Part shown: piece after piece, positions 2,526 through 55,732 of the stretch | Position numbering within the stretch: the first letter of the stretch is position 1 | How the letters are laid out: each line of letters opens with the position of its first letter | Assembly: GCF_004402215.1 (NCBI RefSeq) | Contig: NZ_SOEZ01000061.1 | Span: 1-64,000 of the forward strand | DNA length: 64,000 nucleotides | Reading direction: 5' to 3' | Source of the DNA: Cryobacterium tagatosivorans | GTDB lineage: Bacteria; Actinomycetota; Actinomycetes; Actinomycetales; Microbacteriaceae | Notes under the pieces: generated by a model | What the model was told of the DNA's origin: nothing | Database searches by the model: none | Seen by the model: only the letters and a program-made list of their open reading frames with translations | Program-made: the position numbers and the translations under genes

Positions 2526-3269
2526 TCAGACGACGAGTTCGAGCTCGCCGGGGGCTCCGCGGTGCAGCCGGAAGCCGGCCGTGGGCGCCCAGTCGAGCAG
2601 TTCCTCGGCGGAGGCGAAGACCCGCCCGTGCTCCAGGATCGCGCGGGTGAACTCACCCTTCGACTTCTTGTTGAAGTGGTTGAGCGCCCGCTTCTGTCCG
2701 CCCGGGGCCTCGGTCACGACCCGGAGGAACAGCGACTCCGACCCGGCCGGGGCCGCGCCGAGTGCCACGTAGGCCTCCGACCTCAGGTCGAGCACGAGCC
2801 CCTCTGCGACGGCGAGGGCCTGGCTGACCGCGCCGCCCCAGTGCTTCTTCAACGGATGCCCCGGCAACCGGGAATCGTGCGAGAACCGGTACGCCGGCAC
2901 CAGGTCGAGGGCGCCGACCGGCCCGAACAGCGCCGAGTGCACGACCACGTGCCGGCCGGCGAAGTCCCGCGCGGCGGCGGACAGGGTCGGCGCATCCAGT
3001 GCGTCGTAGAGCACGCCGGTGTAGCGGTCCAGCGCGGCCATCGTCGGCGAGGTGGTCAGGGCGCGATTGCGCTGCACCTCGGCGGCCTGCGTGCGGCCGA
3101 GCTTGAGGGCGGCCATCATGGCCTCGGGATCCCGAGCCAGGGCGCGCAGCTCACGCACGAGTACCCGCCGCTGAGCATTCAGCGACGGGTACCCGAGTGA
3201 CTTACTGTCGAACGATCCGCCTTCGCCACCGTCACGCTTGGTTTCCGACGGCGGAAGGAGAATCAGCAC
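2526..3269 (-). CDS. yaaA: Peroxide stress protein YaaA (DUF328 family)
   Basis: The 247-residue protein begins MLILLPPSETKRDGG, the family's hallmark N-terminus, and carries HSALFGPVGALDLVPAYR near residues 115-135 and NHFNKKSKGEFTR near residue 205. YaaA in E. coli limits intracellular iron under peroxide stress and binds DNA; the biochemical mechanism is not settled. The start is GTG at 3269, only 6 bp downstream of the atpC stop on the same strand, with GGAG within that spacing region. It is therefore most likely transcribed with the atp operon. Family length is about 250 residues, so the gene is complete. Confidence 0.92.
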   Translation of the reverse strand: MLILLPPSETKRDGGEGGSFDSKSLGYPSLNAQRRVLVRELRALARDPEAMMAALKLGRTQAAEVQRNRALTTSPTMAALDRYTGVLYDALDAPTLSAAARDFAGRHVVVHSALFGPVGALDLVPAYRFSHDSRLPGHPLKKHWGGAVSQALAVAEGLVLDLRSEAYVALGAAPAGSESLFLRVVTEAPGGQKRALNHFNKKSKGEFTRAILEHGRVFASAEELLDWAPTAGFRLHRGAPGELELVV

Positions 3270-3275
3270 GATCGA

Positions 3276-3542
3276 CTAAACGAGCCCTGCCTGGCGGGCA
3301 ACGATCGTGATGGTGTCGTTCTCGACGGAGAGGAAGCCGTCGGCTGCCTCCGCGACGATCTTCGATCCGTCGGCCAGCGTCATGCGAACCTCGCCACTGG
3401 CGAGGATCGCGAGCATCGGCTCGTGGCCGGCGAGAATACCGATCTCGCCTTCCACGGTGCGAGCAACGACCATGGTCGCCTCGCCGGACCAGACCTGCTG
3501 GTCCGCCGAGACAACGCTGACGTTGAGCGGCGCCGAAGCCAT
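3276..3542 (-). CDS. atpC: F1Fo ATP synthase subunit epsilon (short form)
   Basis: Subunit epsilon joins the central stalk of the F1 motor and can inhibit ATP hydrolysis. This copy has 88 residues beginning MASAPLNVSVVSADQQVWSG and consists only of the N-terminal beta-sandwich domain. The C-terminal helical hairpin that performs autoinhibition in longer homologues (about 130 residues) is absent, as is usual in this actinobacterial group. An upstream in-frame GTG/ATG extension exists but lies inside atpD, so ATG 3542, two bases after the atpD stop, is chosen. Last of the eight atp genes. Confidence 0.93.
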   Translation of the reverse strand: MASAPLNVSVVSADQQVWSGEATMVVARTVEGEIGILAGHEPMLAILASGEVRMTLADGSKIVAEAADGFLSVENDTITIVARQAGLV

Positions 3543-3544
3543 GC

Positions 3545-5928
<2,384 letters not shown>

Positions 5929-46168: not shown

Positions 46169-46329
46169 TAGCCAGGGCGCAACTCACCCGGCAGCCAGAC
46201 TGTCGTTCTGCGGATCACCAAGTAGCGCGGACCGCTTCGAGGGATTGACGGGTCGACAAGGCAGCGCGCCCGGCATGTGCCACAATCACTCCGACGGCGC
46301 TCCCGCGCGCCGAGAAGCGAGGAAAGCAG

Positions 46330-46926
46330 ATGGCCGAAGTGCTGTTGTTCCATCACGCGCACGGACTGACGTCCGGTGTCCTTGACTTCGCCGAGAACCT
46401 CAGGCTCGCCGGTCACACCGTGCATACCCCCGATCTCTACGACGGGCAGGTCTTCGACGACCTGGACGACGGTGTGGCCTACGCCCAGCGAGTGGGATTC
46501 AGCACCATCATCGAGCGTGGACGGGCGGCCGGCGACGGACTGCCCCGCGAGCTCGTCTACGCCGGGTTCTCCGTCGGGGTGTTGCCGGCACAGATGCTGG
46601 CCCAGACCCGGCCCGGGGCGAAGGGCGCGCTCCTGTTCCATTCGTGCGTCCCGACATCCGAGTTCGGCGGCGCGTGGCCCGAGGGAGTGCCCGTCCAGAT
46701 CCACGGCATGGATGCGGACGCGTACTTCGTCGATGAGGGCGACATCGACGCGGCCCGCGCACTCGTCGAGACGACGCCGGATACCGGGCTGTTCCTCTAC
46801 CCCGGCGGTGAGCACCTGTTCGCCGACAACAGCCTGCCTGCCTACGACGGGCCTGCGGCCACCCTCCTCACCGAGCGGGTGCTGCGCTTCCTCGGGGACG
46901 TCAGCCAGGAACCGTCGACGGCCTAG
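46330..46926 (+). CDS. Dienelactone hydrolase family protein with Ser nucleophile
   Basis: The 198-residue alpha/beta hydrolase begins EVLLFHHAHGLTSGV with the oxyanion region, carries the nucleophile elbow YAGFSVGVLPAQ near residue 80, the acid in MDADAYFVDEGD near 127 and the His in YPGGEHLFAD near 157. Classical dienelactone hydrolases use Cys in GxCxG; this one has Ser, so an esterase-type activity is more likely. AGGAAAG is upstream. Its TAG shares bases with the convergent gene (CTAG). Confidence 0.82.
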   Translation: MAEVLLFHHAHGLTSGVLDFAENLRLAGHTVHTPDLYDGQVFDDLDDGVAYAQRVGFSTIIERGRAAGDGLPRELVYAGFSVGVLPAQMLAQTRPGAKGALLFHSCVPTSEFGGAWPEGVPVQIHGMDADAYFVDEGDIDAARALVETTPDTGLFLYPGGEHLFADNSLPAYDGPAATLLTERVLRFLGDVSQEPSTA

Positions 46927-47213
46927 CCCGGAGTGTTCCCAGGCGCCATCGTGGCCATTCCGGGACGAACGGGCACGAACTGGATGTTCTTCGAGGGGTG
47001 CACGGTCTTCGCGGGGAGCCGCGAGAACCCTTTCGCGTCGAGGTGATTCGTCGCTCGGTACACCATCACGGCCTCGTCATAGATGTCGTTCAGGCGCCGG
47101 CCGGAGAACGTCTCCACGGACCCGTCCGTGAAGGTGATCGAAATGAGCGAACCGGCCGGGAAGTGCCGGTTCATCCGGATGAAGCCGTCGGCGTCCTGGG
47201 TGAGATTGATCAT
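46923..47213 (-). CDS. Hypothetical small protein
   Basis: A 96-residue frame with a short beta-rich middle (SLISITFTDGSVETFSG, EAVMVYRATNHLDAKGFSRL) and a Met/Pro-rich end. No signal peptide or membrane helix. A GAGG-containing stretch precedes ATG 47213. Family not recognised; retained because it fills the interval and has consistent high-GC codon use. Confidence 0.6.
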   Translation of the reverse strand: MINLTQDADGFIRMNRHFPAGSLISITFTDGSVETFSGRRLNDIYDEAVMVYRATNHLDAKGFSRLPAKTVHPSKNIQFVPVRPGMATMAPGNTPG

Positions 47214-47271
47214 GTGGTTCCTCTTTCGTGAACGTCAAGTCTCCCGCATCTCGGCGCCGAGCGATGTGCGT

Positions 47272-47748
47272 CTAGGCCGTCTGCGTCAGCGCGTCGCCAT
47301 CGAGCCGGAACGTGCTCCACCCGTCGAGCGGCACGGCGCCGAGCGACTTGTAGAAGCCGATCGCCGGGTCGTTCCAGTCCAGGACAGCCCACTCGAGGCG
47401 GGCATAGCCGCGCTCGACGCAGATCGCCGCGAGCCGCGTCAGCAATGCCTTCCCGTATCCGCTGCCGCGGAAGGCGGGGCGCACGTAGAGGTCCTCGAGG
47501 TGGATGCCGTGCACGCCCTCCCAGGTCGAGAAGGTGAGGTACCACAGGGCCACCCCGGCGAGCGTGCCCTCCTCCGGGCCGTCCACGACCAGCGCAAAGA
47601 CGGCGGGGCTCTCGCCGAACAGGGCCGATCGCAACCCGTCCTCGGTGGCTACGACCGCATCGGGCTCCTTTTCGTAGACGGCGAGCTCCACGATGAGGCG
47701 GAGGATCTCGCGGAGATCGGACGGTTCGGCGGCGCGCAGGAGGCTCAT
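47272..47748 (-). CDS. GNAT N-acetyltransferase (diamine acetyltransferase-like)
   Basis: The 158-residue protein has the GNAT fold: LRAAEPSDLREILRLIVELA, ALWYLTFSTWEGVHGIHLED, the acetyl-CoA loop VRPAFRGSGYGKALL, and the ending WAVLDWNDPAIGFYKSLGA with VPLDGW. The FSTWEGxxGIHLEDLYV and WNxPAIxFYxSLGA segments are those of spermidine/thialysine acetyltransferase (SAT-like), which suggests an amine substrate. Monocistronic. Confidence 0.88.
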   Translation of the reverse strand: MSLLRAAEPSDLREILRLIVELAVYEKEPDAVVATEDGLRSALFGESPAVFALVVDGPEEGTLAGVALWYLTFSTWEGVHGIHLEDLYVRPAFRGSGYGKALLTRLAAICVERGYARLEWAVLDWNDPAIGFYKSLGAVPLDGWSTFRLDGDALTQTA

Positions 47749-47791
47749 CCAGTCAGCGTACTTTCTCGCAAGCCCTCCCCCGGCCCAGGTC

Positions 47792-49177
47792 TCAGCGCAG
47801 GTTGAAGTACTCGCGGTGCACGTTCGCCGCCCGGGCCCCGGCCCGCACCAGTCCCCTCTGGAACGCGCTCACCATCGCTTCGGGTCCGCAGATGAACGCC
47901 GACAGCTCACGGGGCGAGCAGCCGGCCGTGGTGAGAACGTCCTCGACGGTCAGCCGAGGCTCGGTGCTGGTGTCGATCAGGTGCAGATGGATGGCGTCGT
48001 GCCGCGCCGAGAGCGCACGAATCTCATCGCCGTAGGGAGCGGGGCCGCGGGAGCTGAAGTAGAGGTCCACCCGCGCGGGCAAGGTCTCGGAGGTCGCGTC
48101 CCGCAGCCAGCTGAGGATCGGCGCCACACCGATGCCGCCGGCGATCCAGGCCTGGTGGTCGGTGCCCCGACGGTAGTCGAAGTGTCCGTGCGGGCTGTTG
48201 ATCACGGCCGGCATGCCCGGTTCGACCAGGTCGGCGATGTTGGAGGTGAAGTCGCCCAGGGCCCCGACGGCGACGCGCACGTTGGCATCCGCCGGCGCAC
48301 TGGCGATGCTGAACGGATGCCGGTGCCACCCGTCCTTCGCCTCAAGATAGAGGATGGCGAACTGCCCCGCCCGGTACTCGAAGCGCCGTCCCAGCGGCTT
48401 CAGCGAGATCTCGACCAGGTTCGCGCCGATCGGCTGCACGGAGTCGACCTGGTAGTCGTAGGTGCGGGCGAAGCGGCGGGCGAGCAACTCCCGGTAGACG
48501 TAAAAGGCCAGGCCCGTGCCGCCGATGACGAGGTAGGTCCACCTCAGCACCGCCGAGTCGAACATGCTCGCGTCCAGCAGCCCGTGCACGAACCCGGCGG
48601 CCACGAACACGCCCGTGAAGCGATGGAAGAAGCGCCAGACGGCGTAGCTGCGGAAGGGGACACCGGCCAGGCGCACCACTCGTGAACCGGTGACCCTCGG
48701 GACGAGTCCCCGGAAGCGTTGCGGAACGAAGGACAGCCAGCGCGGCGCGATCGCCCAGACGGTGAGCGCCAACAGGCCGAACAGTCCGATCTGGCCGAGC
48801 GTCGGGCCGACCGTGGTTTCCCGGACGTCGCCGGTCACCAGGGCGTGCACGGAGATCGCCAGCATGCCCGCGATATTGACCCGGCGGTGCCACAGCGCGG
48901 CATGGTCGACCCCGTTGAACCACCGTTCCACCCAGCGCAGCGTGCTGATCAGCACCAGGCCGATGGAGAGCAGGAGCACCCCCTCGGCGCCGAGCCACTC
49001 CCCGACGAGCTGCTCGAAACCCTCACCGGATGGCCGCGCCACGACCCACAAGACGGCCAGGGCGCTCACGAGCGCGGCGATGGTGAGCGGGCCGATCAGC
49101 TTGGCGTCGAGGCGGGACCCGCGATAGTGCGGCCGGTGCGGCGCAGGCTCGGTACTCAGTGCCACGAAGTCCTCCAT
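47792..49177 (-). CDS. Ferric reductase-like flavocytochrome (NOX/FRE type)
   Basis: The 461-residue protein has an N-terminal membrane part with about six helices (35-265) and histidines suited to bind haem (DHAALWHRRVNIAGML, RFFHRFTGVFVAAGFVHGLL). The FAD-binding barrel (RFEYRAGQFAILYL, HRHPFSIASAP) and NAD(P)-binding part (IAGGIGVAPILSWL, FICGPEAMVSAF) follow. It moves electrons from NAD(P)H across the membrane, to ferric chelates or oxygen. The start is uncertain: a 15-bp duplication creates two ATGs, and GTG 49165 is also possible. ATG 49177 is used because GGAGG sits 7 nt before it. Confidence 0.87.
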   Translation of the reverse strand: MEDFVALSTEPAPHRPHYRGSRLDAKLIGPLTIAALVSALAVLWVVARPSGEGFEQLVGEWLGAEGVLLLSIGLVLISTLRWVERWFNGVDHAALWHRRVNIAGMLAISVHALVTGDVRETTVGPTLGQIGLFGLLALTVWAIAPRWLSFVPQRFRGLVPRVTGSRVVRLAGVPFRSYAVWRFFHRFTGVFVAAGFVHGLLDASMFDSAVLRWTYLVIGGTGLAFYVYRELLARRFARTYDYQVDSVQPIGANLVEISLKPLGRRFEYRAGQFAILYLEAKDGWHRHPFSIASAPADANVRVAVGALGDFTSNIADLVEPGMPAVINSPHGHFDYRRGTDHQAWIAGGIGVAPILSWLRDATSETLPARVDLYFSSRGPAPYGDEIRALSARHDAIHLHLIDTSTEPRLTVEDVLTTAGCSPRELSAFICGPEAMVSAFQRGLVRAGARAANVHREYFNLR

Positions 49178-49195
49178 GTTGAAGTCCTCCATGTT
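49166..49195. repeat. 15-bp tandem duplication at the reductase start
   Basis: GAAGTCCTCCATGTT occurs twice (49166-49180, 49181-49195). On the minus strand each copy carries an ATG followed by GGAGGACTTC, so the upstream copy gives the downstream ATG a ribosome site. Confidence 0.9.
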
Positions 49196-49484
49196 CTTGA
49201 GCGGCTGCGTGGAGGCAATGTGCTCGGCAGGGTTGCTGGACGTGCTGTCGGCATACGATACCGCGGCCGGAGGCGGGCTCGCCGGATGCCGTGGAACGGC
49301 CGCCGAAGACAAGCGCGCGTGAATAGCAGTAATGGATGCCCAAAGCCGATCTGTGTCGGTTCCCACAACATATTCGTCGGGAACCACAAAAGCGGGTAGA
49401 CAGCCCTGTCCACGCGCCAAGCTCAGCCCCAGACCGTCGGCGATTCCGGCCCGGCGGGTTCCATCGATAACTGGAGTGACGAAA
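49196..49484. other. Divergent intergenic region
   Basis: This stretch separates the reductase and the secreted protease and must contain both promoters. Open frames run through it on both strands, but they have no family similarity and are regarded as fortuitous. No palindromic repeat or clear operator was found. Confidence 0.5.
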
Positions 49485-50453
49485 ATGAAGAGAACCACAT
49501 TCAGGTCCCGTGCCTTTGCAGTATTGGCGGTCGGCGCTTTGCTCGTCACGGGCGGGCTTGCGACGGCCGGCGGGGCCAGTGCGGCCCCCGCGGCGGGATC
49601 GTCGGACGTCGACCGCTGGGTCGTTCCGCAGACCCAGCAGAGCGGCGACTACTGGACCGCGGCGCGCATGAAAGCCGCGAAGCCGGGCGACACCCTCGTC
49701 GCCGACAACGTCGCATCCGCCTCAGCGACGAACTCGGCCCCGGTTGCCGTCGGACCCACGAAGTCGGTCGAAAAGCAGTCACCCACGCTCAAGGCCAGGC
49801 CCGTCCCGGCGCTGGCACCCGTCAGCCACATCGGCAAGGTGTTCTTCACCCTCGGCGGCGCCAACTACGTCTGCTCCGGAAACGCGATTTCCTCGGCCAA
49901 TAAGAACACGGTCGTCACGGCCGGACACTGCGTCAATGAGGGACCGGGCGCCTTCGCATCACGCTTCACCTTCGTTCCCGCCTACAACAATGGAGCAGCA
50001 CCGTACGGCCAGTGGGACGCGACGGAGCTCTACGCTCCCAGCCAGTGGGCATCCGGCGGTGACATCAACTACGACACCGGTTTCGCAATCGTCGCTTCAC
50101 CCACCGGCACGAGCCTGAGCGACACGGTCGGCGCATCCGGTGTGTCGTTCAACAACAGCCGCGGCCTCACCTACTCGGCGTACGGCTACCCGGCGGCAGC
50201 GCCGTTCAACGGAGCGACCCTGCAGTCCTGCTACGGGGCCGCCTCCGACGACCCCTACGGCCAGACGCAGTCGCAGGGCATTCCCTGCAACATGACCGGC
50301 GGATCGTCCGGCGGTCCGTGGTTCATCGGCAGCGGAACCGCCGGCTACCAGAACTCGGTCAACAGTTTCGGCTACAGCGGCGTCAAGAACACGATGTTCG
50401 GGCCGTACTGGGGATCCGTCATCCAGAGTGCCTATGTCGCCGCGGCGGCCTGA
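49485..50453 (+). CDS. Secreted trypsin-like (glutamyl-endopeptidase-type) serine protease
   Basis: The 322-residue product has a Sec signal peptide (KRTTFRSRAFAVLAVGALLV, cleavage near ASA at residue 33) and a propeptide of about 80 residues. The chymotrypsin fold carries His in NTVVTAGHCV, Asp in INYDTGFAIVA and Ser in NMTGGSSGGPWF. Four further cysteines (VCSGN with AGHC; SCYG with IPCN) can form two disulfides. ATG 49485 follows GGAG. It is expected to be exported and self-processed. A small acidic gene follows. Confidence 0.92.
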   Translation: MKRTTFRSRAFAVLAVGALLVTGGLATAGGASAAPAAGSSDVDRWVVPQTQQSGDYWTAARMKAAKPGDTLVADNVASASATNSAPVAVGPTKSVEKQSPTLKARPVPALAPVSHIGKVFFTLGGANYVCSGNAISSANKNTVVTAGHCVNEGPGAFASRFTFVPAYNNGAAPYGQWDATELYAPSQWASGGDINYDTGFAIVASPTGTSLSDTVGASGVSFNNSRGLTYSAYGYPAAAPFNGATLQSCYGAASDDPYGQTQSQGIPCNMTGGSSGGPWFIGSGTAGYQNSVNSFGYSGVKNTMFGPYWGSVIQSAYVAAAA

Positions 50454-50487
50454 GCCGGATCGGGAACACTCCCCCGACACCCCAGGA

Positions 50488-50658
50488 GTGGCCCATGAAC
50501 ACGTGACGCCCGACCCGGCGGACTCCGCCGAATGGGACGAGGAACGGATGCGCGGGGCCAGGCCCCGCGAGATCGTGCTCAACCCGGATGGCACGCGTCA
50601 CGTAGACGACCAGGCGGACGAAACGGATCCGCCGGAGGGAGAACCGGAGGAAGAGTAG
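50488..50658 (+). CDS. Small acidic protein
   Basis: A frame of 56-76 residues depending on the start, ending REIVLNPDGTRHVDDQADET and a Pro/Glu tail. Strongly acidic, with no membrane segment. Possible starts are ATG 50428, GTG 50488 and GTG 50503; AGGAG lies beside 50488. Similar small proteins with a LNPDGTxHVDDQADE phrase occur in related actinobacteria by recollection; the function is unknown. Confidence 0.5.
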   Translation: MAHEHVTPDPADSAEWDEERMRGARPREIVLNPDGTRHVDDQADETDPPEGEPEEE

Positions 50659-50670
50659 ATCAACGCTGTG

Positions 50671-50708
50671 ACGGGACCGTCGGATAGCTGGCTATCCGAC
50701 GGTCCCGT
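50671..50708 (+). terminator. Strong stem-loop terminator
   Basis: Two perfect 18-bp arms (ACGGGACCGTCGGATAGC and its complement) with a 2-nt centre are followed by TGTTT. It closes the protease transcript, 12 bp after the small acidic gene. Confidence 0.8.
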
Positions 50709-50760
50709 TGTTTCCGGCCGGAGCCGGCCTGAGCATCCGTTTCCGGCCAGGTCGATATGC

Positions 50761-51147
50761 CTACTTGGATTTCTTGGTGACCGTGACCGAAATCGAGATG
50801 GGGCCGATCCCGATAGTCACCGTCACCGTGCGGGTCCTGGCGGCCTGAGCCCGAGCGGCGGCTGCGGTCTGCTGCACCGGCGCCGGCTGGGCGGTGTCGG
50901 ACACCTTTCCGGTCTCCGGTCCGTCAACGGTGGCCAGGGTGACCCGGGTGTCGACCCCGGCCTCGGCGAAGATCTCCTCCACCGCAGTGCTACTGCCGCT
51001 GTGCACAGCGTCGATGAGCCGCTGGGTCAGAGCGTCACCCCTGGACAGCGCGTCGGCCGCCCGGGCGACCTGCATGGCATATTTCTGGATGCCCGCGACC
51101 TCGTTCATGGTGTCGTGCGCGGTGCTGTTCTCGTAGTCGTTACTCAT
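50761..51147 (-). CDS. Hypothetical protein
   Basis: A 128-residue soluble protein. The N-terminal half is helical (MNEVAGIQKYAMQVARAADA), with an Ala/Gln linker and a basic beta-rich C-terminus (RTVTVTIGIGPISISVTVTK). No signal peptide. GGAGG precedes ATG 51147. No family recognised. Confidence 0.6.
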   Translation of the reverse strand: MSNDYENSTAHDTMNEVAGIQKYAMQVARAADALSRGDALTQRLIDAVHSGSSTAVEEIFAEAGVDTRVTLATVDGPETGKVSDTAQPAPVQQTAAAARAQAARTRTVTVTIGIGPISISVTVTKKSK

Positions 51148-51238
51148 GGTTGCCTCCTCGACCTGGCTCCGCTGCGCGGTCTGCGCGGCGCGAACGCGGA
51201 CATGCTACCCGGATGGATGGAGGCGGGCTATGGGCCGG

Positions 51239-52414
51239 CTACTTCGCGGAGCGCGAGCTGAGGTCGAGGTTGGCACCGGGGATGTCCGCGGCGGTGAGGT
51301 GCCAGACGTACTCGTTCTTCAGCTTGGCGCCGTCGCCGGCGAACGGCCCGCTGCGCCAGGGGTAGAACGCGATCGTCGGCAGGGTGGCATCGGCCGAGGT
51401 GAGGATGGCGTTGTTGAAGTCCCCGTTGATGCGTCGCAGCGCGGCCACGACGGAGGCCCGCCACGCGGCCAGGTCGTGCCCGCTCCCGTCGCCGGCCCCC
51501 TCGGTGAGCTGCAGCGCGATGTGCAGTTGCTTGTCGCCCAGCTCATCTTCGAAGCTGACCAGCCGGTGGTTGGCCACGGCCCTGAGCAGCACCGGATCGG
51601 TGTAGATCACGTCGCGCAGGGCATCCGGAGCGACGACCGCCCCGTTGTAGTCGACCGACATGTCGCTGCGGCCGTAGTGGAAGAGAAGCGGCAGGTCGAG
51701 GAACTGGAGCCGGTTCAGCCGGCCCAGCCCGTGCTCTTCCAGGATCGGGCGCAGGTCGCGCAGGCGCATCACGTGGCCCCGGTCGTGGATGTTGTAACGC
51801 AACCGCGGGTTGATGTTCTGTTTGCGCACGATGGAGACGATGAGCTCGCCTCCCTCGTTCGTCTCGATCAGGTAGTCGTAGGGGTTGAACTGGAACACCA
51901 TCGGCAGCACGCCGTACTCGCCCTGCTTCGTGATGCGCTTGGCGAGCTTCGGGCTCTGCGCGATCGCCCGGCGAAGTTCGACCGTGTAGTCGGTCTCGAT
52001 CGCCACGTTGATTTCCAGGTCGGACGCGCCATAGGAGCCGAACGCGCTGTGCGCGTAGCGCAGGATGTGGCTGCGCATGTTCTCGCTGATGCCCTCCCCG
52101 CCGAAGGCTGCGACGATGTCGTACTTCTCCCAGTCGAGCCGTTTGTCCATCTCCGGCAGGCGCGCGTAGCTGGCCGCGAGGCCACCCTTGGTCGAGAGCT
52201 TTCCCGACACTCCGCGTTGTGCGAGGAACTCCCGGTAGGCGGGGACCTTCCTGGCCGCCATCTCGAACGTGCGCCAGGCGCGCCAGCGGCCGAGGGTCCA
52301 GCGCAGCGGCTCGATCCCAGGGCCGAGCAGCAGGCTGTGCGTCGTGATGCCGCGGGTGAGTAGCCTGACGACGCCGTCCTGGAGCCAGACAAACAGGAAA
52401 ATGAACGGTTTCAT
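51239..52414 (-). CDS. PaaK-like adenylate-forming protein lacking its catalytic core
   Basis: The 391-residue protein resembles phenylacetate-CoA ligase/coenzyme F390 synthetase-like proteins. The N-terminus (EMAARKVPAYREFLAQRGV, ARLPEMDK) and the second half (YDIVAAFGGEGISENMRSHI, SYGASDLEINVAIETDY, YDYLIETNEGGELIVSIVRK, HDRGHVMRLRDL) both fit. Between LPEMDK and RLDWEKYD, at residues 90-92 (about nt 52140-52150), the roughly 130-150 residues that in relatives contain the SSGSTG-type P-loop are absent, with the frame kept. The protein is unlikely to activate a carboxylate with ATP. The ATG overlaps the Acg-like gene's stop (TGATG). Confidence 0.8.
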   Translation of the reverse strand: MKPFIFLFVWLQDGVVRLLTRGITTHSLLLGPGIEPLRWTLGRWRAWRTFEMAARKVPAYREFLAQRGVSGKLSTKGGLAASYARLPEMDKRLDWEKYDIVAAFGGEGISENMRSHILRYAHSAFGSYGASDLEINVAIETDYTVELRRAIAQSPKLAKRITKQGEYGVLPMVFQFNPYDYLIETNEGGELIVSIVRKQNINPRLRYNIHDRGHVMRLRDLRPILEEHGLGRLNRLQFLDLPLLFHYGRSDMSVDYNGAVVAPDALRDVIYTDPVLLRAVANHRLVSFEDELGDKQLHIALQLTEGAGDGSGHDLAAWRASVVAALRRINGDFNNAILTSADATLPTIAFYPWRSGPFAGDGAKLKNEYVWHLTAADIPGANLDLSSRSAK

Positions 52415-53454
52415 CAGGCGTCCTCCGTGGCGGGCAGCAGCATCCGGGCCGCGGGGCGGCGGTGGGCGAGCGGCGGGGTCTTGCTGTGGCCGAAACGAAA
52501 CAGCATCCAGGCCATGTCGCCGTCGCCCTCGGTGATGCCCAGGGCGCGCACGAACAGGTCGTGCGAGCCCGGGTTCGTGATGACGGTGCCGAACGGATGC
52601 AGGTACACGCCCGCCCGGGTGAAGTGCAGCCAGAGCCGGAGGAAGGTGCGCCCCGCCTCGATGTAGTCGGCCGGGGCGGCGAACGGGCCCTCCAGCCACC
52701 CGAGCTGGCGCACCCCGCGCATGGTGCGCAGGTAGACCCCGCGGATGGCCGGGCCGACGATCGGCAGCTGCCACAGGCCGCGGTGCTTCATGGCGAAGCG
52801 CAGGATGCCGCCCGGCATCAGCATGGTTTCGGCGCTGAGGCCGTCCTGCCGCTCGGCCGCCTCGGACTTCGAGAAGCGCAGCCAGTGCATGATCTCCCCG
52901 TACACGGCGTCGTTCTGCAGGTCGTCGAACAGCGTCTCCTGGTTGATCCGCACGAGATCCTGCACGATCCGGGCGTCGCTCGTGGTGCGGAACCGGAACC
53001 CGGCCGACGCCGCGATGCGGGCCGCCTCCTCGACCGTCGATGGGTCGACGAGGGTGTTGTCGTAGGGGCGGCGCGAGGTACGCCGGGCGAGGAAGTCGGC
53101 GTGGCCGGCGCGAGCCTCGGCATCCTGGTGCTGGGACTCCAGCGTCACCGTGCCAAGGACGTGCAGGCGCTCGGCCGCGTCGAAGTCGAGGTCGGAATGG
53201 TCGAGCGCCTCGATCGTGCGAAAGCCGTGGCCGGCGGCTACCACGGCCAGCGCGTGCAGGAAGACCCCGGCGCAGACGTGCCCGAACGGGATGCCGAAGG
53301 ACTCGGCCGGCAGCCCCAGGTCCAGGTCGTAGTAGACCTCGGCCGTGGTGTCGTTCAGCGCACGGAGCTTGATCGGCTGCGAGTTGTGCGGGGACGGGTA
53401 CAGCCGCACATCCTCGATGATGCCCGGCCAGACATCCCCCATGCTGGTCGTCAT
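52414..53454 (-). CDS. Acg-like nitroreductase-family flavoprotein
   Basis: The 346-residue protein has the double-domain nitroreductase arrangement of mycobacterial Acg (Rv2032): IIEDVRLYPSPHNSQPIKLR near residue 12 (FMN phosphate side), RRTSRRPYDNT near 125, and RTFLRLWLHFTRAGVYLHPF near 270. Acg proteins bind FMN but lack NAD(P)H reductase activity because of a lid, and are thought to store flavin. It is translationally coupled to the PaaK-like gene; the pair forms one transcription unit of unknown purpose. Confidence 0.78.
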   Translation of the reverse strand: MTTSMGDVWPGIIEDVRLYPSPHNSQPIKLRALNDTTAEVYYDLDLGLPAESFGIPFGHVCAGVFLHALAVVAAGHGFRTIEALDHSDLDFDAAERLHVLGTVTLESQHQDAEARAGHADFLARRTSRRPYDNTLVDPSTVEEAARIAASAGFRFRTTSDARIVQDLVRINQETLFDDLQNDAVYGEIMHWLRFSKSEAAERQDGLSAETMLMPGGILRFAMKHRGLWQLPIVGPAIRGVYLRTMRGVRQLGWLEGPFAAPADYIEAGRTFLRLWLHFTRAGVYLHPFGTVITNPGSHDLFVRALGITEGDGDMAWMLFRFGHSKTPPLAHRRPAARMLLPATEDA

Positions 53455-53506
53455 GCCCTCACCCTAGCGGCGGCCGGGCCCGCGGTGGGCGGCAGTTCGG
53501 CCCGCA

Positions 53507-53989
53507 TCAGGGGGTGGGCAGGGAGACCGTGGCGAGCACGGTTCGCCCGCTCGGCCCCGTGCGGGGCGCCATGTCGACGAGGGCGACCTGCGAGAGGGAG
53601 AGCACGTCCCCCTCGCCCGCGCGGGCATTCCGCTTGACCGTGACGTGGGCCCGGAAGTCGGGGCCGGTGAAGGCCGGCTCGTCCGGGGCCGCGGCGAACG
53701 GCCGAACGGCATCGACCAGGATGCGGTGCAGGCGCGCCAGGGTGCCATCGTCCACGACGAGGGTCACCGGGACATCCTTGCGTCGCCCGAACAACTCCTC
53801 CGGGCCCGCCACCGCGGTGAGGGCAGCCTGGCCGGATACCGCCGCCGCGATGGCCGCTGCGATGTCGGCGGGCGCGGCATCCGTGAGGAAGGGGGCCAGC
53901 ACGGTGATGTGCAGCGGCCAGTCCGCCACCGCGAAGTTGTCCCCGGCCTGGAGTGGGTGCAATGGGAGGACGACGACGAGGCGGGACAT
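53507..53989 (-). CDS. 2'-5' RNA ligase / 2H phosphoesterase family protein
   Basis: The 160-residue protein contains the two HxT motifs of the 2H family: WPLHITVLAPF near residue 25 and RAHVTVKRN near 117. It may hydrolyse cyclic phosphodiesters or act on RNA ends. Longer upstream readings lack similarity. Monocistronic, divergent from the ABC-F gene. Confidence 0.85.
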   Translation of the reverse strand: MSRLVVVLPLHPLQAGDNFAVADWPLHITVLAPFLTDAAPADIAAAIAAAVSGQAALTAVAGPEELFGRRKDVPVTLVVDDGTLARLHRILVDAVRPFAAAPDEPAFTGPDFRAHVTVKRNARAGEGDVLSLSQVALVDMAPRTGPSGRTVLATVSLPTP

Positions 53990-54140
53990 GCGCCGATTCT
54001 AGGGCGCGGCGACTGCACGCCGGGTGGCTGCCCAGTGCCTGCCCGGTGCCTCCGCAGCCGATTGTCAACGGGACTTTGTAGACTCAGGGCTGGGGAACCG
54101 TAGGGTGGAACCATGGGAACCACCCCTTGAGAGGACAGTA

Positions 54141-55732
54141 GTGAGCCTGATCCGGCTGCAAGACGTCAGTGTTCGTTTCGAAACCGCGCAGGTCCTGCGA
54201 GAGGCGTTCTTCCGCCTCGAACCAGGCGACAGGGTGGGCCTGATCGGGAAGAACGGATCGGGGAAGACCTCGATCCTCAAGCTGATCCTCGGCCAGGTGA
54301 CCCCGGATACCGGCACCGTCACCCTGGAGCCGGGCGTCAAGGTCGGCTACTTCTCGCAGTTCTCCGAGCTGGACGGCCAGGCGACCATCAGCGAGGTCCT
54401 CGACGACCTGTTCGTGGAGATCAAGGCCGTCGAAGCCGAATTGGCGTCGATTGACGCCGCCATCGCGGAGACCCCCTCTGACGCGGAACTCGACCGGCTC
54501 ATCCACCGCCAGGCGGAGCTGTTCGAGCAGATGGACCGGCTCGACGGCTGGGACTACAAGCGACGGATCGACACCGCGCTGACCACGCTCGGGTTCAACG
54601 AAGCCCACCGCGTCTGCCCTATCGATGAGCTCTCCGGCGGCTGGCGCAACCGCGCGGCACTGGCGAAGATCCTGCTCGAGGGCCCGGACGTGCTGCTGCT
54701 GGACGAGCCCACCAACTACCTGGATGTGGCCGGAGTCGAATGGCTCGAGGCCTGGTTCCGGGATTTCCGCGGCGCGGCGATCATCGTCTCTCACGACCGG
54801 CGGTTCCTGGACGCCGTCGTCAGCCGGATCATCGAGGTCGAGAACTTCCACCTGCACGAGTACCCCGGCAACTTCGGCGAATACGTTGTGCAGAAGCAGT
54901 TCCGGCTCAAGACCCTCGAGCAGCAATTCGTGCACGAGTCGGAGCTGCTGGCGTTCGAGGCGGAGGGGATCTCCGACCGCCGCGAGGCCGCGAAGGCGGC
55001 CAGCAAGAACCTCGGCAGCCAGCTCGCGAAGATCAAGAAGGCCCGCGCCCCCGGCCCGTCGACCAGATCATCACCGAGATCTACGGCCGGCTGCACGTCA
55101 AGGATTCCCTGTGCCGGGTCGAAGGCCTCAGCAAGGCCTACGGCGACAAGGAGCTGTTCACCGACCTGACCTTCGAGATCCGGCGCGGCAACCGGATTGT
55201 CGTGCTCGGCTCCAACGGCAGCGGCAAGACCACCCTGCTCCGGGTCCTGACCGGGGAGGAGCCGGCCGACTTCGGCGAGGTCGCCTGGGCGCATGGGACG
55301 GTCGTGGTCTCCTACAACCAGGTGCTCGCGGAGCTCGACGACGACGACACGGTCAGCCACGCGGTCAACGCGATGCCGGGCAGCCTGGCCTTCACCGCGA
55401 CCCGCAAGTCGGTCAACCGGTTCCTCGCGATGTTCCAGTTCTCCGAGGCCGACCTCAAGCAGAAGATCGGGAACCTGTCCGGCGGGCAGCGCGCGCGCGT
55501 GGCGATGGCGCAGTGCCTGCTGTCCGGCGCCTCGGTTCTGCTGCTGGACGAGCCGACCAACCACCTGGACATGTCCAGCACGCAGGTGATGGAGCGGGCG
55601 CTGCTGCACTTCCCCGGGGCCGTCGTGGTCGTCAGCCACGACCGGTTCTTCACCGACAAGATCGCCAACCGACGCCTCGTGTTCGGCACCGATGCCGAGA
55701 AGCCGGGCGAGGTGGACGTGCGCGCGGCCTAG
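54141..55732 (+). pseudogene. ABC-F ATPase with a single-base frameshift between its two ATPase domains
   Basis: Both ABC domains are intact. The first has GKNGSGKTS, LSGGWRNRAALA and LLLDEPTNYLD; the second has GSNGSGKTT, LSGGQRARVAMA and LLLDEPTNHLD. The reading frame changes in the linker at a C5 run (55048-55052), after SQLAKIKKARAP; adding one C joins it to RPVDQIITEIYGRLHVKD. Without correction, translation stops near 55167. GTG 54141 follows GAGAGGA. ABC-F proteins act on the ribosome (translation factors or antibiotic protection). The loss may be real or an assembly error in the homopolymer. Confidence 0.87.

Follow-up and report, generated by a model that had tools for sequence, protein, structure and literature searches.

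A conserved gene pair of a PaaK-like protein and an Acg-like flavoprotein, and its copy in Cryobacterium tagatosivorans that lacks the ATP-binding core

Loci for acyl-oxazolone biosynthesis, in which the gene of an ATP-using adenylating enzyme lies beside, or is fused to, that of an FDO-type flavoprotein of the nitroreductase superfamily, have been described as TyzABC, TrzAS (M. tuberculosis) and OxzAB (P. rubra). The pathway reported for TyzABC and TrzAS (PMC10404671, PMC12856293) starts with an acyltransferase, whose N-acyl amino acid product is cyclised by a ThiF protein or domain at the expense of ATP and then desaturated by the FDO with O2; the TyzABC authors state that the three B-type oxidase genes of M. 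tuberculosis all lie apart from genes predicted to make oxazolones (PMC10404671). A second set of related enzymes, XsbC, NatL2, AjiA1 and ClxA, consists of adenylating enzymes of the PaaK family with ring-closing or ester- or amide-forming activity: The benzoxazolinate cyclase XsbC, a member of the phenylacetate-CoA ligase family, is reported to be solely responsible for ring closure, which was proposed to proceed via adenylation, and its proposed cassette includes an FMN-dependent dehydrogenase, i.e. a flavoprotein of a different type from the Acg-like partner treated here (PMC10098953); an ester formed by an adenylating enzyme is an intermediate on the route to a benzoxazole in the biosynthesis of nataxazole (PMC7204872). 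No report of a PaaK-type enzyme combined with an oxidase-like flavoprotein was found in the literature searched, most subscription journals lying outside it, and the main texts of PMC10404671 and PMC12856293 mention neither PaaK, phenylacetate, acyl-AMP, CoA ligase, ANL nor AMP-binding.

The stretch of DNA analysed here (the window) comprises 64,000 nucleotides of the Cryobacterium tagatosivorans contig NZ_SOEZ01000061.1 and carries such a combination, with the following features:

52414-53454, minus strand: Acg-like flavoprotein gene (nitroreductase superfamily, FDO-like), first of the pair, 346 aa
51239-52414, minus strand: PaaK-like gene without ATP-binding core, second of the pair, 391 aa
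52142-52414, minus strand: retained N-terminal part of the PaaK-like protein, residues 1-91, ending LPEMDK
52141-52142, minus strand: deletion junction in the PaaK-like gene, between codons 91 (K) and 92 (R)
51242-52141, minus strand: retained C-terminal part of the PaaK-like protein, residues 92-391
50660-53510, no strand assigned: segment carrying the pair together with one small gene, missing from the corresponding site of the sister species (G024), 2.85 kb

The stop codon of the Acg-like gene and the start codon of the PaaK-like gene overlap as TGATG on the minus strand; the first-pass annotation had described two genes coupled in this way, and both genes as well as their overlap were confirmed at the positions given there. 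The retained N-terminal part of the PaaK-like protein is 73% identical to the N-terminus of a full-length relative (L097), and the best relatives share 65-79% identity with the C-terminal part, which keeps GASDLE, RYNIHD, GRSD and the C-terminal Lys (motifs with putative ANL roles). The window protein gave no ANL or PaaK match against the Pfam and NCBIfam models; its kinship to PaaK was shown via the full-length relatives, by profile and by fold. A profile of 30 of these matches solved PaaK structures (phenylacetate-CoA ligases, best E=1.6e-12), and PaaK1 with ATP ranks first (TM 0.63-0.78) among the fold matches of the AlphaFold model calculated for full-length L097 (mean pLDDT 87.5, pTM 0.85), further matches including 6SIX (PaaK family AMP-ligase) and 6WUQ (AjiA1) at approximately 15-16% identity. 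The fold is common to the full-length relative and the phenylacetate-CoA ligases PaaK1/PaaK2, whereas the sequence kinship is weak and the window copy has no P-loop; four distant members scored 20-40 bits with the NCBIfam PaaK model, the cut-off of which is 646, and the close member L041 gave no match.

The partner had been named an Acg-type FMN-sequestering protein at first pass. Its relationship to Acg stands: The profile of the partner's family matches 2YMV (M. smegmatis Acg) with E=1.6e-22 over the aligned positions 7-339, and Acg (Rv2032; MsAcg 2YMV) and Rv3131 belong to the same superfamily as the window flavoprotein. The designation is, however, too specific, the window protein reaching 108 bits (E=4.6e-31) with NF047509 (Acg family FMN-binding oxidoreductase), for which the cut-off is 199, and falling into a separate clade. 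In the tree calculated from 54 rows (the window plus 53 of the 131 rows extracted, the 131 including three from the window itself), 11 close-type partners formed one clade (100/99), 13 NF047509 members another (98/91) and eight Rv1355c-type ThiF fusions a third (100/100); the window flavoprotein was positioned outside the clade of the NF047509 members and outside that of the ThiF-fused oxidases, to which it is related. Conserved stretches of the Acg-like family are RLYPSPHNSQP and RRTSRRPY. In the short flanks of 45 NF005901/NF047509 loci, a profile search revealed no PaaK-like match. Acg-type proteins have been hard to assign a reaction, and Acg itself has been described as an FMN-binding protein without clear reductase activity.

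The main discovery is the intact pair rather than the broken copy of the window. Among the best 80 of the 243 PaaK-like relatives, the Acg-like gene adjoins the PaaK-like gene on its upstream side at 79 loci (the exception is L153; L125 is cut by a contig end and L157 is broken). The gap between the matched parts of the pair amounts to 214 bp at most, and in 53 of the 55 pairs measured the two genes share 4 or 8 bases, the start codons being script-chosen. In a second set of 17 nearer relatives, at least six of which represent the same genomes as in the 80-locus set, the Acg-like gene is adjacent in 16. The 'two-gene system' suggested by the first-pass annotation is thus a real and conserved coupled pair. 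A third gene conserved beside the pair across genera was not seen at the 80 loci (best of 243 relatives): A neighbour cluster present at 48 loci was considered as a candidate and rejected, most of its ORFs (46 of 63) being alternative frames of the pair and the remainder downstream ORFs, mainly of Curtobacterium.

By record title, the hosts of the pair are Actinomycetota, Saccharibacteria and other Patescibacteria, Obscuribacterales (Melainabacteria) and one Flavobacteriaceae MAG; outside the Actinomycetota, MAGs account for many of the records. The records of Saccharibacteria and other Patescibacteria (L154, L158, L160-L164, L168 and L169) are an unexpected place for it, the small genomes of Patescibacteria keeping few biosynthetic genes.

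A distant subfamily of nine loci (L051-L059) shows a different arrangement. An Acg-like match lies nearby in eight of the nine, some of these matches being weak (E up to 1e-3), and seven (L051-L056 and L058) contain a GNAT-like gene and a small gene between the PaaK-like and the Acg-like genes. The GNAT-like gene passes a Pfam cut-off in L055 only, one of the five scanned members that gave any match, and the small gene matches PF13826 below the cut-off in three scanned loci. No homologue of this GNAT-like gene was found at the 80 loci in a search that covered the GNAT-like type, and the flavoprotein partners from the four-gene loci had no firm placement in the 54-row tree. The distant four-gene loci may possibly represent a complete pathway with its own acyltransferase.

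Compared with the Tyz, Trz and Oxz systems, which have a ThiF-type cyclase and an acyltransferase gene, the pair contains a PaaK-type enzyme and, in its two-gene form, no conserved third gene, a difference that counts against an analogous function; its flavoprotein belongs to a clade separate from the Rv1355c-type fusions (TyzC and OxzB lie outside the sampling of the tree). By analogy with TyzABC, TrzAS and XsbC, the intact pair probably activates a carboxylate and oxidises the product: The PaaK-type enzyme would adenylate a carboxylate that is then cyclised, coupled or released, and the flavoprotein would desaturate the product with O2, as in the ThiF and FDO pairs that make acyl-oxazolones. 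Both steps, carboxylate adenylation and flavoprotein desaturation, are inferred from these described systems. A large flavoprotein clade that is nearly always found beside a carboxylate-adenylating type of enzyme thereby obtains a concrete, testable reaction type. More speculatively, and in its full extent rather doubtful, the intact pair may be a mobile biosynthetic unit of two genes, so far undescribed, in which a PaaK-type enzyme replaces the ThiF cyclase beside a further FDO clade and whose product in Actinomycetota, Patescibacteria, Melainabacteria and Bacteroidota would be oxazolone-like or some other dehydrogenated acyl compound, the distant loci with the GNAT-like gene being the complete three-step version.

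The copy in the window deviates from the intact form by a deletion in the PaaK-like gene. Where six close relatives read PEMDK, 133 residues and R(L/I)DW, the window reads LPEMDK followed directly and in frame by RLDWEKYD, 399 bp (133 codons, residues 92-224 in L097 numbering) being missing; the in-frame join with loss of the P-loop region, as annotated initially, was therefore confirmed by comparison with close relatives. The P-loop DESSGSSG lies in the lost part, as do 29 of the 63 columns that are invariant in alignment A2; in the N-terminal domain of the L097 model, this part makes up five strands and six helices (one helix minus its first residue); the Gly/Ser-rich, ATP-binding P-loop of PaaK-type ANL enzymes is absent from the window protein. 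Since the ATP-binding core of an adenylating enzyme has been removed, the window copy is almost certainly unable to activate its substrate. A full-length relative (522-residue query) matched the window's genome by residues 1-90 and 222-518 only, and the segment between residues 90 and 222 had no match anywhere in the assembly, even at E<=10; in consequence, the missing P-loop segment is absent from the rest of the assembly as well. The AlphaFold model of the short form (mean pLDDT 83.4, pTM 0.65) aligned with the same PaaK structures at a TM of approximately 0.4 over roughly 290-340 columns; given its mean pLDDT of 83, the short form is possibly a folded remnant.

Full length is the rule among the relatives. 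The P-loop segment DESSG(S/T)(S/T)G is present at all of the best 80 of the 243 relatives' loci and stands in one frame with the C-terminal part at 79 of them (L157 is frameshifted); it is likewise present in all 17 nearer relatives, 16 of which show a spacing of 143-154 residues to the GASDLE stretch. The first-pass annotation had raised the question whether the short form is widespread: It was seen in no other genome, neither among these 80 loci (0/80) nor among the 17 nearer relatives (0/17), distant relatives of approximately 30% identity not being among the loci counted one by one. A deletion confined to this strain, with sister strains carrying the full-length gene, had been named as the finding that would speak against a two-gene system built on the short form; of this, it holds that only this genome has the short form and that more distant relatives are full length, whereas the congeners are without the gene altogether and the species is represented by one strain.

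The earlier description of the retained halves as well conserved and free of stops was borne out, 33 of the 34 invariant columns outside the deletion being kept (T327 in L097 numbering is replaced by S); the remaining conserved family residues, including GASD, RYNIHD and GRSD, are thus present in the window protein in 33 of 34 cases. Conservation was assessed with 59 of the 80 loci for the PaaK-like and 55 for the Acg-like protein (L154, L156-L158 and L160-L176 were left out, for Acg also L103, L125, L150 and L153). At columns conserved to at least 90%, the window is changed in none of 27 in the N-terminal part and in four of 131 in the C-terminal part (T194S, I205L, E281A, R295K); relatives without a near neighbour are changed in 0-2 of 27 and 1-8 of approximately 131, and the truncated L153 in 15. 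For C-terminal change, the window ranks 8 of 60 at the 90% threshold and 4 of 60 at the 97% threshold, which is within the range of the relatives but on its changed side, and may be a weak hint of more change than usual.

In a codon branch model (own script, 387 codons, 12 sequences), calculated on a fixed topology with partly weak inner support (32 and 46 at two forks), omega of the window branch was 0.056 compared with 0.048 elsewhere (2dlnL 0.16), so that no relaxed selection on the retained PaaK-like halves was detectable. The profile of 2dlnL rose to 2.4 at an omega of 0.10, 4.9 at 0.13 and 27 at 1.0; this places the upper limit for the window branch at approximately 0.12 (interpolated) and rejects omega=1 (2dlnL 27). 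Under a simple mixture and with synonymous sites saturated, neutral evolution of the remnant would cover at most approximately 7-8% of the window's branch. Normal omega and the 33 of 34 kept invariant residues point either to a young deletion or to continuing constraint on the product; the dN/dS comparison that had been proposed therefore revealed no detectable relaxation, and a young deletion and a constrained product are indistinguishable by these data alone. For the Acg-like gene, the window hit the branch-length limit, which makes the result unusable, and the test was not clean, because a control branch (L109) was significant (2dlnL 14).

With respect to the origin of the pair, the sister species G024 has approximately 83 bp in place of segment 50660-53510, and the flanks 46267-50659 (89%) and 53511-55730 (93%) are adjacent in its locus L093, flanking DNA of the window and the sister species being 88-94% identical. 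Among 57 genomes of the genus, 54 of them complete enough to pass the filter, the PaaK-like gene was matched in the window's own genome only, with no match in the 56 others, and the Acg-like gene in one other genome, weakly (22%, E=2.2e-4). From the empty site in the sister species and the lack of a match in the 56 other genomes, the pair was probably acquired recently; the most parsimonious reading is that the window's lineage gained it, a loss in the sister being the alternative. The nearest relative by C-terminal identity among the best 80 of 243 is Agromyces albus (79%), and the flavoprotein tree groups the window with an Arthrobacter (98/94). A repeat search of the window revealed no repeat pair joining both segment ends as a mobile-element signature.

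The small gene on the inserted segment (50761-51147, minus strand, 128 aa) has no match in the sister stretch nor in 100 pair loci. At the edge of the segment lies a perfect, terminator-like 18-bp inverted repeat (50671-50708); the equivalent position of the sister species is occupied by a different hairpin-like stretch, as judged by eye.

We consider it likely that the window holds a horizontally acquired copy of the conserved two-gene cassette, the PaaK-type adenylating core of which was removed by a single recent in-frame 399-bp deletion. The uniqueness of the short form, the kept residues and the loss of much of the ATP-binding domain favour such a young inactivation, and the window copy would accordingly be in the process of being lost rather than a newly evolved scaffold. 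Against it may be held that an intact frame, the lack of a stop and normal constraint are also expected of a retained useful short protein, although the in-frame state as such says little, a random deletion being in frame one time in three. Between the decaying pair and the scaffold that the first-pass annotation had offered, decay fits best. That the short protein works with the flavoprotein without catalysis of its own, as a scaffold or substrate-holding subunit, would agree with the kept frame and most invariant residues and with the short-form mean pLDDT of 83.4, but is very unlikely, because the short form was found in one genome only and the retained residues, conserved as they are, equal those of the full-length relatives: Those expected to serve adenylation (GASD, RYNIHD, GRSD and the C-terminal Lys) are kept, none of which a long-standing non-catalytic role would need, and the N-terminal domain has lost five strands and six helices, the TM being down to approximately 0.4 and the pTM at 0.65 versus 0.85. 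An ancient decay of the PaaK-like gene was rejected, no relaxation being visible in the branch model. It is unlikely, too, that the strain in fact has a full-length gene and that the deletion arose in sequencing or assembly; a draft assembly of 81 contigs, the restriction to one genome, the exact conservation of the frame and the normal constraint on both sides would all suit an artefact, but the missing segment was found nowhere in the assembly even at E<=10, and a clean loss of 399 bp would be untypical of short-read error. The window copy matters mainly as a probable natural inactivation and as a warning that a single draft genome can make a broken enzyme resemble a new scaffold.

The function of the intact pair could be conceived differently, the PaaK-like enzyme adenylating a flavin or deazaflavin and the Acg-like protein storing the product as a 'flavin store'. 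Such a role would be in line with the FMN binding without clear reductase activity described for Acg and with the PaaK-like F390 synthetase, which adenylates F420. It nevertheless appears highly improbable: The characterised relatives of the flavoprotein are oxidases or desaturases acting on acyl amino acids (PMC10404671, PMC12856293), and a collective survey of the neighbours at the pair loci showed no conserved gene pointing to flavin metabolism.

Damaged copies were encountered outside the window as well. A MAG (G730, locus L050, approximately 3069-3896), one of the 17 nearer relatives, contains a PaaK-like copy with a different internal deletion, located after the P-loop and leaving a GASDLE spacing of 63; an Acg-like partner was not found within its 12-kb stretch, and the copy represents either an independent decay or an assembly fault. 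Among the best 80 of the 243 relatives, four loci have frameshifted or truncated pair members, which is in keeping with an inactivation of the copy in the window. In the chromosome of Arthrobacter sp. OVS8, which carries two copies of the pair, both genes of the second copy (L157, 673-3294) are frameshifted, as is the Acg-like gene of the other copy (L103).
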